From: an uncultured Candidatus Nitrosopumilus sp.
GTDB taxonomy: Archaea; Thermoproteota; Nitrososphaeria; Nitrososphaerales; Nitrosopumilaceae
DNA length: 40,215 bases
Reading direction: 5' to 3'
NCBI GenBank assembly: GCA_905479565.1
Contig: CAJQMY010000013.1
Location: 1 to 40,215 of the forward strand
Under the pieces are notes generated by a model that saw only the letters and a program-made list of their open reading frames with translations, searched no databases and was not told where the DNA came from. Below, in pieces: positions 547 through 27,176 of this stretch; position 1 is the stretch's first letter; each line of letters starts with the position of its first letter. Made by a program: the position numbers and the translations under genes.

Positions 547-1038
547 ATGAAATTACAAGTGCTGATGTTTTATCAAGATGATCCAAAAAAATGTACCGCT
601 GCTAAAATGGTTAAATTCGGTCTTGCGCAAAACATTAAAAAAATTGGTTCTAAAGGTTTGGTATTAGATCCGTTTTCTGAAAAAACTTTACTTCCTAAAG
701 ATAAATCCACTATCAATACGATAATTGGCATAGATTGTTCTTGGAATCTGGCGGATCAAGCATTTTCTAAAAAATTTTCTGGTATCAAAAGAAAATTACC
801 TCCTTTACTTGCCGGCAATCCTGTGAATTATTCAAAATTAAATAAATTAACTACTGCTGAGGCATTAGCAGCATCTTTGTTTATTTTGGATTCTAAAGAT
901 CAGGCTTTGGAATTACTTGACAAATTCAAATGGGGTCATACATTCTATGAACTTAATCAAAATCTTTTGGAAGAATATTCTAATCTTGAAAATGAATCAC
1001 AAGTAGATCTAATTTTAAAAGATTATGGTTTACTTTGA
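547..1038 (+). CDS. Tsr3-like ribosome biogenesis protein (rRNA aminocarboxypropyltransferase family)
   Basis: 163 aa, matching the archaeal Tsr3 (DUF367) family in length and order of motifs: an N-terminal RLI-like segment with a Lys-Lys-Cys-Thr stretch, the motif IDCSWN near residue 60, then RKLPPLLAGNPVNY near residues 82-96 and a helical segment with TAEALAASL. In eukaryotes Tsr3 uses SAM to transfer an aminocarboxypropyl group to a hypermodified small-subunit rRNA base; the archaeal role is inferred from family. The ATG at 547 is the natural start. The gene is convergent with the substrate-binding protein gene, and their 3' ends overlap by 16 bases. Confidence 0.88.
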   Translation: MKLQVLMFYQDDPKKCTAAKMVKFGLAQNIKKIGSKGLVLDPFSEKTLLPKDKSTINTIIGIDCSWNLADQAFSKKFSGIKRKLPPLLAGNPVNYSKLNKLTTAEALAASLFILDSKDQALELLDKFKWGHTFYELNQNLLEEYSNLENESQVDLILKDYGLL

Positions 1039-3485
1039 TTTTTTTTAAAAAATATTATAACTCCCACTATTGCAATTATTGGCATTGCCCAAATCCAATA
1101 CGATGGTTCATTATCGGCGAATTCAATATTTTTGTGCACTGTTATTGGCAATTCACTTTTGTTATTTACAGTAATGAAACTTGATTCGTAAAAGTCTGGT
1201 TTTAACACCGAGTTTGAAATTGCAAATATTTTGATGTTATTTGCACCTGTGTGTAGTTTGTTTGAGGCCTCTGGATTAATTTTGATAGCTGTTTTACCAT
1301 TTTTTGTGTCTATTGTCTCTGAGATTATTTTCTCTCCTTTACTATTTGTTAAAAAATACAATATTGAATCTGAATTTTTAGTCTCAATATTTAGCGTGAT
1401 TTCTTCTCCTTTTTGTATTAGTTTTTCCATGTCTATTTTCTCAATTGATGGAAACTTTGTTTCCTCAAATCTTGACCATTCGCTTTTTTTGAATGGATAT
1501 GAATCATCATCAAATGCCGTTACTTTGATTGTTCTTGATTCTGGTGAGTATGATTCTAGATAAAATGGGCCATTGCTTATCACTGCATGTTCTTTAGTCT
1601 GAATCCAATTAATTGAAGAATCATATCTATTTTTATGATATTCCACACTTTGATTATTCTTTTTTATTGCTTCTGGAATGTAGTCTGTTTCTTTAAATTC
1701 TTGCAAATAATTTTTGATGATGGCTGCATCATTTGGTATGATTAGCGATAACCAATTGACACTCTTACTTACTGCTCCTGATCTTGAAAATGAAACCTTT
1801 CCATCGATTACTGCTTTCTCCATTGCGGCTGTAATTTCCCACGGAACTAGAGTTGCTATATCTGCCCAGTCTGCAATCTCTCCTTCATCATAATGCCAAT
1901 AGTCCACATACACTTCAACGGTATTTTCGTCTACTGTGTTTATTCCTCTGATTGTCTGAATACTTTGTGCTGCTCTGGGGGTAAATTCTGTGTCAAAAGT
2001 TTTATCATTTTCATCTATTTGGGTTCCCCACTCTATGGTGAAATACAATGCATGTAAAATATCGTTAATATCCATTTTTTGTCCATTATGCCAATTACTG
2101 AGTTTCCAATCAAATGTCACTTTGCTAGTTGCAAATGCATTGGGCCCTACATCTTCCCATTGCTGTGATGCTGAATTCCAAATTTTTGTTTCTTGAGGTA
2201 TGACTAATTTATCGTTTGGACCTGCCGTTTCAACTTGCCAATCTGCTCTAATTGGAATTGTTTTTCCTGTAAATGGGTGCTTGAATGTAGCTGGATCTGA
2301 AATTATTCCCCATATCTGTACACTATAACTATCCGTCATCCCCATCACTGGATTCCATGCCCCTTGATAGATTTGTTTGACTCCTATTGTCAACTCTTCA
2401 TGATCACTCTTAGCATTAATTGGCGTGAATCTGCTTGGTATTCCTGCTCCAAAATCGTTTACTACCCCATTAATTTTTTCATTTACTACGTATTGATCAA
2501 TTTTATTTGCTAGAAAAATTCTAACTGATTCGCTAATTCCTTCTACTACTGCTTCCTGAATTAATTTTGCCCTTTGCTCTGCCGTTTCAAAATCACTTGT
2601 GTATATTTTTTGAGTAATTGTATCTAATTTTTCATTTTTATAATTCCAATATGTTGGATCATTAAATCCTGGCATGTTTGAAAACCAAGGAGAATACATA
2701 TGTCCTAATCCTGAGGAATCGTATTTTACAAATGCTGAACGTTGCCATGCTTCTGTGTATAAATTCCATTTTACGTCTGATGGATTTGAACCATAGACTA
2801 TTGTGAATGCTTTATTCAAATCCCCGAAATCTTTTTTCACTGTGAATCCTATTTTTTCTAGTTCTACTGCTAATATTTCTCCTATTGATTTTCTTATGGG
2901 ATCATCACTTCTAATAAAAATTATAATTTCTATTGGTTCTTTGCCCATCTGCCATTTTCCTTCTTTTTTGATTGCACCTTTCTCTGTTAGTGCTTTAGAA
3001 ATGATTTCTTTTGCTAATGTTGGATTGTATTTGAAATTGAACGTCTCTAACTGTTCAATTATCGTCAGAAATTCTGGGCTTGAAGTACCATAATATGAAA
3101 TGCTTGTAGCCCCGTATCCTCCCATTAACTCATTTACTATCAAATTCCTATCTACTAAATAATTTAAGGCAAATCTGGCATCTTTATCTGAAAAAGGGTT
3201 GAATTTTTCTGATTCTGCAGGGTTTACTAGAATGCTATAAAATCTACTTGTTGCATCAAAAACTTGCAATTCTTCTTTGCCTTGATAGTTTTCTAATCTG
3301 TCTGCTGGGATTGTGTCATAGTATATGTCTAAATTCCCATTTCTGACTTCTTCTAATGCTGTGTTTTCATCTAAATATTGAATGAATTTTACTGAATCAA
3401 AAAATGTATTTTTTTCTGCAAATGATTCATTGTGCATTATTGTTGCCATTGAAAGAGCTAGTATGACAACTAGCATAATTTTCAT
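1023..3485 (-). CDS. Family 5 (peptide/nickel-type) ABC substrate-binding protein with swapped halves, membrane anchored
   Basis: 820 aa, exported: N-terminal signal (residues 1-23) and a C-terminal membrane segment (about 793-812, WIWAMPIIAIVGVIIFF) with a basic tail. Residues 25-350 resemble the second half of an SBP_bac_5 protein: an ENTALEEVRNGNLDIYY segment, then NPFSDKDARFALNYLVDRNLI, where family members carry an iDR motif. Residues about 365-690 resemble the first half: TIGVKQ..GAWNP, TFDWKLSNWHNGQKMDINDILHAL and GPFYLESYSP. The halves are therefore in the reverse of the usual order, suggesting circular permutation. A beta-sandwich-like segment (about 690-785) precedes the anchor. Ligand is unknown, and no permease or ATPase gene lies nearby. 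Confidence 0.85.
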   Translation of the reverse strand: MKIMLVVILALSMATIMHNESFAEKNTFFDSVKFIQYLDENTALEEVRNGNLDIYYDTIPADRLENYQGKEELQVFDATSRFYSILVNPAESEKFNPFSDKDARFALNYLVDRNLIVNELMGGYGATSISYYGTSSPEFLTIIEQLETFNFKYNPTLAKEIISKALTEKGAIKKEGKWQMGKEPIEIIIFIRSDDPIRKSIGEILAVELEKIGFTVKKDFGDLNKAFTIVYGSNPSDVKWNLYTEAWQRSAFVKYDSSGLGHMYSPWFSNMPGFNDPTYWNYKNEKLDTITQKIYTSDFETAEQRAKLIQEAVVEGISESVRIFLANKIDQYVVNEKINGVVNDFGAGIPSRFTPINAKSDHEELTIGVKQIYQGAWNPVMGMTDSYSVQIWGIISDPATFKHPFTGKTIPIRADWQVETAGPNDKLVIPQETKIWNSASQQWEDVGPNAFATSKVTFDWKLSNWHNGQKMDINDILHALYFTIEWGTQIDENDKTFDTEFTPRAAQSIQTIRGINTVDENTVEVYVDYWHYDEGEIADWADIATLVPWEITAAMEKAVIDGKVSFSRSGAVSKSVNWLSLIIPNDAAIIKNYLQEFKETDYIPEAIKKNNQSVEYHKNRYDSSINWIQTKEHAVISNGPFYLESYSPESRTIKVTAFDDDSYPFKKSEWSRFEETKFPSIEKIDMEKLIQKGEEITLNIETKNSDSILYFLTNSKGEKIISETIDTKNGKTAIKINPEASNKLHTGANNIKIFAISNSVLKPDFYESSFITVNNKSELPITVHKNIEFADNEPSYWIWAMPIIAIVGVIIFFKKNQSKP

Positions 3486-14236: not shown

Positions 14237-15610
14237 GTGTCTCGGATTGTGTTATTGTCTGTTTTGCTAGCAACTCTTATTGTTGTTGGTACTAGTGCTC
14301 CTGCTTGGGCAGCACAATTGGATGCTAGAATTAATCCTAACACTGAAACCTCTCCATTCAAAATAACTTATCTAAAAACTGTCTTTATTGAATACCCAAA
14401 TGGCGGAGATCTTTTTGATGAATTACAAGGAAAAGAGTGGACTGTGGGTGGAAATGCTGATTCTTCAGATCCTGGTGTTCAAGAACTTATCGAGCAATTA
14501 AACCGTGGAATTGCTAATGATGGTAGTCAAGCACAAGTTGATGACTTGAATGTAACTTATGATTTTCATCTTAAAGCTAGAAACATTAACACTTCAATTG
14601 ACTATCGTGTGATTTTAGAGGGAACTTTGACTGATTATGTGATTACTGATGATGGTCAAAGAACATTAGTTGACTTGGGTTGGAGAGCATTATCTACAGA
14701 TAAAGAAATTATAATCAACGATGTTGAAATTAATATTCCAATTAATATTTTAAGAGATAACGAACCAGAAGCGTACACATACTTTGCTGGAACTGAAGCT
14801 GAAGAAGTTTTAGGTAAACATCTTATGGATGCTGATTTTATTTTAGAACAACCGTTAACTAACTGGCATTTTCTGTTTGATCCAACTGGAATCAATGTAG
14901 ATGCCGGAACTTTTGGATTGGATGACGAAATCGCTGGATTTGTTATATCAACATGGACTATGGGTGAAAGTAGTATTAGAGAAGGTAGACAGGTTGAAAA
15001 AGTCTTTGAAGCAGAAATAATGGCTGATCAACTGTATATTGTTAGAAGTGTTCAATCCACTGATTCAGCAAACTTGTCCACTATAGGATTTGGTGCTTTA
15101 GATAGTTTAGATGGTATTGAAATTGTAGGTGTAACTCCAACCCCTCCTGATGATTATATGACTACCTCAACTGGTGATTTCCCAGTACTGATAGTTTATG
15201 GCATGGCTGGAATAGCAGCTATTGCAGGTATAGCATTTTTCTTTGTTAGTAGCAGATCCCTCAAAAATGAAAAACAAGGCCAACAAGGAATTGATCCCAA
15301 TAGACTACAAGGCTACGAAACTAGTGACGCATCTGGAGGTTACAAGACCAATAGAGGCGAGGCTCAACTAAAGGATGATGCTGATTATCAACAAACACGA
15401 AGTCATTATGATGAGCCTTCTAGTCCACCTCCACAACAAAGTCCGCCTCCACAAGTAACTTCTTCTCAGGATGATGCAGCATGTGGATGTGCAGCATCCG
15501 TTGAAATGGGCTCAGAATGTGATTGTGAAATGCAAGGTGCATGTTTATGTGATGGAACATGTAGATGTAGTGCAGATATCTGTAAAGATCAAGTTAACTC
15601 CATGAGTTAA
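14237..15610 (+). CDS. Membrane-anchored surface protein with Cys-rich tail, function unknown
   Basis: 457 aa from a GTG. A signal peptide (residues 1-25, ending SAPAWAA) precedes a large soluble domain (about 26-305), rich in beta structure and acidic residues, which I do not recognise. One membrane helix follows (about 312-334, FPVLIVYGMAGIAAIAGIAFFF), then a hydrophilic linker with prolines. The last 42 residues carry nine cysteines (416, 418, 428, 430, 436, 438, 442, 444, 449), four of the pairs being CxC, as in metallothioneins. With a cleaved signal peptide the tail would be cytoplasmic. Conserved-protein status in thaumarchaea is likely but inferred. Confidence 0.75.
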   Translation: MSRIVLLSVLLATLIVVGTSAPAWAAQLDARINPNTETSPFKITYLKTVFIEYPNGGDLFDELQGKEWTVGGNADSSDPGVQELIEQLNRGIANDGSQAQVDDLNVTYDFHLKARNINTSIDYRVILEGTLTDYVITDDGQRTLVDLGWRALSTDKEIIINDVEINIPINILRDNEPEAYTYFAGTEAEEVLGKHLMDADFILEQPLTNWHFLFDPTGINVDAGTFGLDDEIAGFVISTWTMGESSIREGRQVEKVFEAEIMADQLYIVRSVQSTDSANLSTIGFGALDSLDGIEIVGVTPTPPDDYMTTSTGDFPVLIVYGMAGIAAIAGIAFFFVSSRSLKNEKQGQQGIDPNRLQGYETSDASGGYKTNRGEAQLKDDADYQQTRSHYDEPSSPPPQQSPPPQVTSSQDDAACGCAASVEMGSECDCEMQGACLCDGTCRCSADICKDQVNSMS

Positions 15611-26234: not shown

Positions 26235-27176
26235 ATGCAGAATTGGAATTTAATTTTTGGAATTTTCATAATTTCTAGTCCAATTCTGTTTGCAATGATT
26301 GCATTTCCTGACTCTATAGCTTGGAGTTGGAATGAAGGCAGGGGTGGTTATTTCTTTGCTCTGATCTTTATTGTTGCTGAATTAATTGGATTGAAGATAG
26401 TAATTTCAAAGAAAAAACTACTTGCTGTAATCCCTTTGGCTTTGGCAACTATTGTTTATCTTGCTTCATTAGAATATGGTTTAAGAGATTACATTATAGA
26501 ATCTGCAGAATATTTTGATGTACAATTAATCTATTCTTGGACTTGGATGTGGGACTTTGTGGTGATGGCAATCTTCATTGTTGTTGCATTGAGTATATTC
26601 TTTGAAAAGCGTTGGATTAGAATTGCTCCTGCCGGCCCGATATTCCTTACAGGCACTGCAATAATCCTTTCACTTGATGCCTTTTTTCCATATGATACAC
26701 TTGGCCCATTACAATATGTTGTTCCGTATTTCGTACAAGCAAATGTTTGGATAATTACTGTGCTTGATCTTGGAACTGCAGTTGCTAGAGACAATGTGAT
26801 GTTTTTACGTGGTGATCATGGTTCCATGGCTCTTCAGGTATTTTGGCCATCAGCTGGCGTTCATAGCATCATAATTTTTTCATTAGTAATTGGGGCATTC
26901 ATGTTAAAACTAAACATTCTGAGAACTCGTAAAGTAATTTACTTTGTTTTAGGAATTATTGGAACCGTTATTGTCAATCTGATTCGAGTTTTTTCATTGT
27001 CTTGGTACGCTCTTAAAGTTACGACTGATCCTGTTGCTTGGGAAGAATATCACAAGATAGCTGGGGAGATAATGTTCTTGCCGTGGCTATTTGCGTTTGT
27101 TTTAGTAGTGATTCTCATTGAATCAAGGCGTCTTAAAAAATCAGAAAATAATGATATTTCTAAAAATAAGAAGTGA
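26235..27176 (+). CDS. Archaeosortase/exosortase family protein (thaumarchaeosortase-like), Ser at the Cys position
   Basis: 313 aa with about eight membrane helices, the normal build of exosortase/archaeosortase transpeptidase-like proteins. The three conserved motifs are in order: FWPSAGVHS (the usual Cys site is Ser206), VNLIRVFSLSW (Arg251) and EEYHKIAGEIMFLPW (His273). The known family uses a Cys-Arg-His triad to process C-terminal sorting signals such as PGF-CTERM. Here Cys is replaced by Ser, so the mechanism, or activity, may differ. A partner with a sorting tail is not identified in this window. The 3' end overlaps dinB by 17 bases. Confidence 0.78.
   Translation: MQNWNLIFGIFIISSPILFAMIAFPDSIAWSWNEGRGGYFFALIFIVAELIGLKIVISKKKLLAVIPLALATIVYLASLEYGLRDYIIESAEYFDVQLIYSWTWMWDFVVMAIFIVVALSIFFEKRWIRIAPAGPIFLTGTAIILSLDAFFPYDTLGPLQYVVPYFVQANVWIITVLDLGTAVARDNVMFLRGDHGSMALQVFWPSAGVHSIIIFSLVIGAFMLKLNILRTRKVIYFVLGIIGTVIVNLIRVFSLSWYALKVTTDPVAWEEYHKIAGEIMFLPWLFAFVLVVILIESRRLKKSENNDISKNKK

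Follow-up and report, generated by a model that had tools for sequence, protein, structure and literature searches.

The gene at positions 1023 to 3485 on the minus strand of the window (the whole analysed stretch of 40,215 nucleotides) encodes what is, with a probability that we put at roughly 85%, a naturally circularly permuted oligopeptide-binding receptor (family 5, cluster C) of an Opp-type ABC importer. At the sequence level this protein, P0001, is a circular permutation, with an order swap far above chance; it is a permuted variant of SBP_bac_5/cluster C and not a standard member, and this order is constant within the genus and is found again, in colinear form, across the Thermoproteota. 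The repeated natural permutation of one archaeal receptor family is a more interesting result than P0001 alone. The gene is laid out in the window as follows:

1023..3485, minus strand: permuted family-5 solute-binding protein gene P0001, 820 aa (open reading frame with profile and PDB matches, kept in the 31-sequence alignment)
3417..3485, minus strand: Sec signal peptide, residues 1-23, no lipobox cysteine (hydrophobic N-terminus; predicted cleavage between MKIMLVVILALSMATIMHNESFA and EK)
2421..3407, minus strand: half A, residues 27-355, the canonical C-terminal part (HMM c241-c532; TkOppA 320-593), from sequence matches
2400..2420, minus strand: junction of the canonical C- and N-termini, residues ~356-362 (gap between halves A and B; limits approximate)
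1491..2399, minus strand: half B, residues 363-665, the canonical N-terminal part (TkOppA 18-309), from sequence matches
1167..1448, minus strand: putative C-terminal beta-sandwich (Ig-like) stalk, residues ~680-773 (all-beta pattern in the AlphaFold2 model, pLDDT mostly 70-89 there)
1035..1103, minus strand: C-terminal membrane anchor, residues ~795-817, with a basic tail (hydropathy 2.5 over the last 60 residues; model helix 796-817)

The open reading frame is real and complete, but lies on the minus strand, as a single frame with zero stops. The two motifs lie where they had been placed (FNPFSDKDARFALNYLVDR at residues 95-113 and FDWKLSNWHNGQKMDINDI at about 459-477), and the sequence shows the C-terminal transmembrane segment and has no lipobox cysteine. 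The claim that the motifs stand in swapped order was borne out by matches to TkOppA, to Pfam and to a canonical HMM, all of them in exchanged order. In a phmmer search against all PDB chains, P0001 residues 372-664 matched residues 18-309 of the 7fi3 chain (TkOppA of Thermococcus kodakarensis; i-Evalue 1.7e-24) and residues 27-275 matched 320-593 of the same chain (2.3e-18), and a profile from 31 relatives raised the whole match to 7fi3 to E=5.7e-65. TkOppA, also of family 5, is the best structural and sequence match of P0001 and is matched by both of its parts, but its order is canonical, whereas P0001 is rotated by ~300 residues. The Pfam profile SBP_bac_5 (PF00496; OppA/DppA/NikA) placed P0001 in the family with E=1.9e-26 and 93.5 bits against a cut-off of 32.4. 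All canonical parts are present once with the same conserved motifs, but the match falls into two stretches, and profile positions 137-348 (P0001 residues 19-249) stand first. Residues 19-354 corresponded to c233-532 of a canonical archaeal HMM, built here from canonical-order archaeal proteins (542 positions, numbered c1-c542). The canonical second part is therefore found ahead of the first; each part is internally colinear, and a short linker joins the canonical C- and N-termini within ~10 residues, near 356-366. Both frame and order were kept in the alignment of 31 relatives, one row of which ends at a contig edge. Searches with NCBIfam returned nothing but a sub-threshold match of half A to bacterial NikA (NF045468; 28 bits against a cutoff of 600); P0001 is thus not an equivalog of NikA, which has the canonical order.

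Two SBP domains, or their remnants, joined in tandem in one chain could mimic such a permutation. Permutations usually arise by way of duplication, and with 820 aa P0001 exceeds the length of bacterial OppA, but the surplus is made up by the beta domain, the anchor and inserts that TkOppA also has. Further arguing against a tandem pair, each canonical part is single, and halves A and B, compared by BLASTP, showed no resemblance to each other (E=2.5). The separate alignment of the halves that the original prediction had proposed as a check found both matching as assigned and neither amounting to a full SBP domain. Tandem duplication was thus not found, which supports the reading as a circular permutation and leaves the tandem alternative very improbable. 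An architecture scan of the collected open reading frames gave the order A-B in 125 cases and B-A-B in none; the lone A-A-B call was one protein with half A split by an insert.

Even less probable, to the point of being negligible, is an artefact of assembly or gene calling, i.e. a rearranged contig or a frame fusion. The assembly is fragmented, the window being an entire contig of 40 kb, and 1 kb separates the gene from the contig end, but the frame is open throughout and the same order recurs in relatives from numerous separate assemblies, some of them single-contig genomes (G007, G036, G006 and others). P0001 had a match in 33 of the 37 genus genomes searched (split over two contig fragments in G035), and the four without one include several incomplete genomes. 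The receptor nevertheless seems dispensable in the genus, as G156, a single-contig, near-complete genus mate, yielded no match to the permuted receptor nor to SBP_5. Named relatives belong to Nitrosopumilus, Nitrosarchaeum and other Nitrosopumilales/Nitrososphaeria, and single colinear matches spanning both halves reach across the phylum at 29-77% identity. Viral contigs scanned with the family profile contained no relatives, and bacterial plasmids gave solely canonical-order or half matches. One relative (L129:5317-11556) is a 2079 aa open reading frame in which FG-GAP-like repeats and apparent type-I periplasmic binding domains, both named by eye, flank the permuted SBP_5.

The cut in P0001 falls near c240/241, between npdYwggk and pkidevvikfy of the canonical consensus, in a loop that connects two strands; in TkOppA numbering it lies between ~309 and 320. 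From OppA structures in general, we take this position to be inside lobe I. The original description of two lobes in swapped order therefore does not hold for P0001, as the chain is cut in one loop, after NPdYW, within a lobe. Two AlphaFold2 models computed from the 31-sequence input, one of the full length and one of the SBP part only, reached mean pLDDT values of 65.5 and 61.6, respectively, and the best PDB match of the full-length model by Foldseek was again 7fi3, partial only, at TM 0.31-0.35. Because these models are poor, we infer, rather than read from them, that the rotated chain closes into a normal two-lobed fold. A Pfam search with the C-terminal beta domain gave no match, and the label Ig-like is tentative for this reason. 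The segment FPSIEKIDM near the C-terminus was considered as a scar of duplication; its resemblance to the N-terminal strand is weak, and it more plausibly opens the beta domain.

Such a protein presumably originated by gene duplication and fusion, followed by loss of the outer ends. In P0001, a short linker (around residue 360) joins the canonical chain end-to-start, and the chain opens anew in the surface loop that follows NPdYW, so that behind the signal peptide the canonical second part precedes the first, with the beta domain and the membrane anchor at the end. The rotated chain would fold into a TkOppA-like Venus-flytrap that, held by its C-terminal anchor, captures short peptides outside the cell and hands them to the OppB/OppC pair of the genome, with two OppD/F ATPases powering import. 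Family membership points to peptides as the probable ligand, as does the pentapeptide with which TkOppA was crystallised according to the title of 7fi3. Permutation events of this kind have occurred repeatedly in archaeal family-5 receptors.

The source genome (1.42 Mb, 64 contigs) encodes P0001 as its single SBP_5 protein, one pair of adjacent BPD_transp_1 genes (OppBC-like, contig C6) and two oligo_HPY ATPases (contigs C56 and C22). The receptor gene has no permease neighbour there and is unlinked to the OppBC pair and to both ATPases. In distant relatives, the permuted SBP gene directly precedes oppB and oppC, and often oppD and oppF too; the permeases of these operons score highest to the OppB/OppC pair of the source genome. 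Thus, the genetic link to OppB/C and oligo_HPY ATPases that marks an Opp/Dpp receptor was found through operons in many relatives. As the gene is not adjacent to a permease in its own genome, its pairing with the permeases is drawn from these distant operons; together with the closeness of their permeases to the resident pair, they lend good support to an importer role. Most likely, P0001 serves as peptide receptor to the one Opp importer of this genome, whose genes are scattered.

The unlinked position of the gene, its membrane anchor and the fusion of L129 to repeats and a second binding domain would also suit a permuted SBP that has lost its role in import and serves as a surface receptor or adhesin, e.g. 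in sensing or in capturing peptides for a protease. We consider this improbable, given that oppBC(DF) operons accompany the gene in many relatives and that the source genome has retained OppBC and two ATPases, for which P0001 is the sole SBP_5 available.

The permeases linked to permuted receptors of this type have an enlarged OppC. Its length is 458-650 aa in all 25 linked P0001-type operons for which a full-length OppC was measured and 478-518 aa in 3 related operons with L163-type receptors, compared to 286-302 aa in 12 canonical operons. The OppC of the source genome (contig C6; L199:8410-9777, minus strand) has 455 aa and carries an insert of ~165 residues after TM1 and before the LGTDxxGRD segment, i.e. 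between TM1 and TM2, where the usual topology places it outside; operons of P0001-type receptors have this insert in common. By analogy with the P2 loop of MalF, which contacts MalE, the OppC insert may dock the permuted receptor. It is equally possible that the insert reflects shared descent with no functional tie to permutation, since nearly all cases come from one branch.

The original prediction had also raised the question of whether all thaumarchaeal homologues share the swapped order. Within the genus the order is indeed fixed, but permutation is not limited to Thaumarchaea, and several independent permutations of this family have taken place across Thermoproteota. When other SBP_5 proteins of the phylum were mapped on the canonical HMM, their chain ends fell at four sites, all of them loops by consensus position, and each cut type had examples adjoining Opp/Dpp genes:

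Cut I, ~c240: P0001-type; L163/164/166/173; the L167-171, L202-216 family
Cut II, ~c275-305: L165; at 54-56% identity G106, G114, G082
Cut III, ~c376: L186/187, L232-257 (family codes f22, f41, f20, f72)
Cut IV, ~c458: L194, L217-231 (family codes f29, f33, f21, f60, f70, f44)

Two close pairs differ by rotation. Between L215 (G349, cut I) and L194 (G103, cut IV), both of family f21, the exchanged halves matched with 62% identity (331-748 on 108-526) and 54% identity (81-330 on 527-777). Similarly, P0004 (cut II) matched the canonical-order L272 with 53% identity (367-678 on 65-368) and 57% identity (128-363 on 383-618). Rotations therefore occurred well within these protein families. The cut-II SBP_5 proteins have a CARDB-like segment near the N-terminus (L165 and L272-L275, a set that includes one canonical-order relative), and most cut-III proteins (L186, L187, L232-L257) have a C-terminal hydrophobic anchor. 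The idea that permutation serves C-terminal anchoring in general was dropped, as types II and IV and the L168-type proteins have N-terminal anchors only.

On a quick IQ-TREE phylogeny of rotated and re-aligned sequences (70 rows, 473 columns, high divergence), the segment orders needed 7 changes, or 6 without TkOppA. In AU tests, for which the groups had been named after a first tree, all cut-I proteins together were rejected (6.7e-7), as were all cut-IV proteins together (1.3e-5) and a union of P0001-type and L163-type proteins without TkOppA (1.7e-6). While the exact count of events is uncertain, more than one event is secure because the cut sites themselves differ. The P0001-type and L163-type proteins with cut I might nonetheless descend from one ancient permutation; they share the cut, the enlarged OppC and C-terminal anchors, and the canonical order of TkOppA would then be a later reversal. 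TkOppA, a single long branch, sits beside the P0001 family with a union support of 100 (its row being incomplete and taken from the phmmer alignment), and a reversal would fit the same tree. That placement and the rejected union without TkOppA speak against common inheritance, and the L168-type cut-I proteins fall far off in the first of these tests; we regard a single ancient event for the two groups as possible but rather unlikely.

Taken as a series of independent rotations, the family-5 binding proteins of Thermoproteota very probably represent a natural permutation series with an added external OppC segment in the P0001 branch. With at least four cut loops and 6-7 order changes, some of them recent (~55-60% identical pairs differing only by rotation), the position of the chain ends would then behave as a freely evolving trait. 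To our knowledge, a natural circular permutation is as a rule a one-time ancient event, and repetition is very unusual. Engineered permuted periplasmic binding proteins used as biosensors show the same kind of rearrangement in the same general fold class; in contrast to these man-made variants of other SBP families, the permutation of P0001 is natural, conserved and repeated. In the open-access literature searched, outside of which most subscription journals lie, no natural permuted family-5 receptor and no link to an enlarged OppC was described, only engineered permutants or unrelated work, and this absence is no proof of novelty. A single family with several permutations at four sites, and with close relatives that are unpermuted or differently permuted, allows direct comparison. 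It makes testable how permutation originates, how it affects folding, anchoring and permease docking, and for what reason it is tolerated or favoured in archaeal surface receptors. Ordinary profile searches score permuted proteins as half matches, as Pfam did here, so annotations may understate or misrepresent what ammonia-oxidising and other archaea can transport.

Two further genes of the window were noted. A 457 aa membrane protein with a cysteine-rich C-terminal tail is encoded at 14237-15610 on the plus strand and had no match in Pfam and NCBIfam searches. The gene at 26235-27176, also on the plus strand, encodes a thaumarchaeosortase that might process the C-terminal anchor of the permuted receptor; it matched TIGR04297 with 616 bits.
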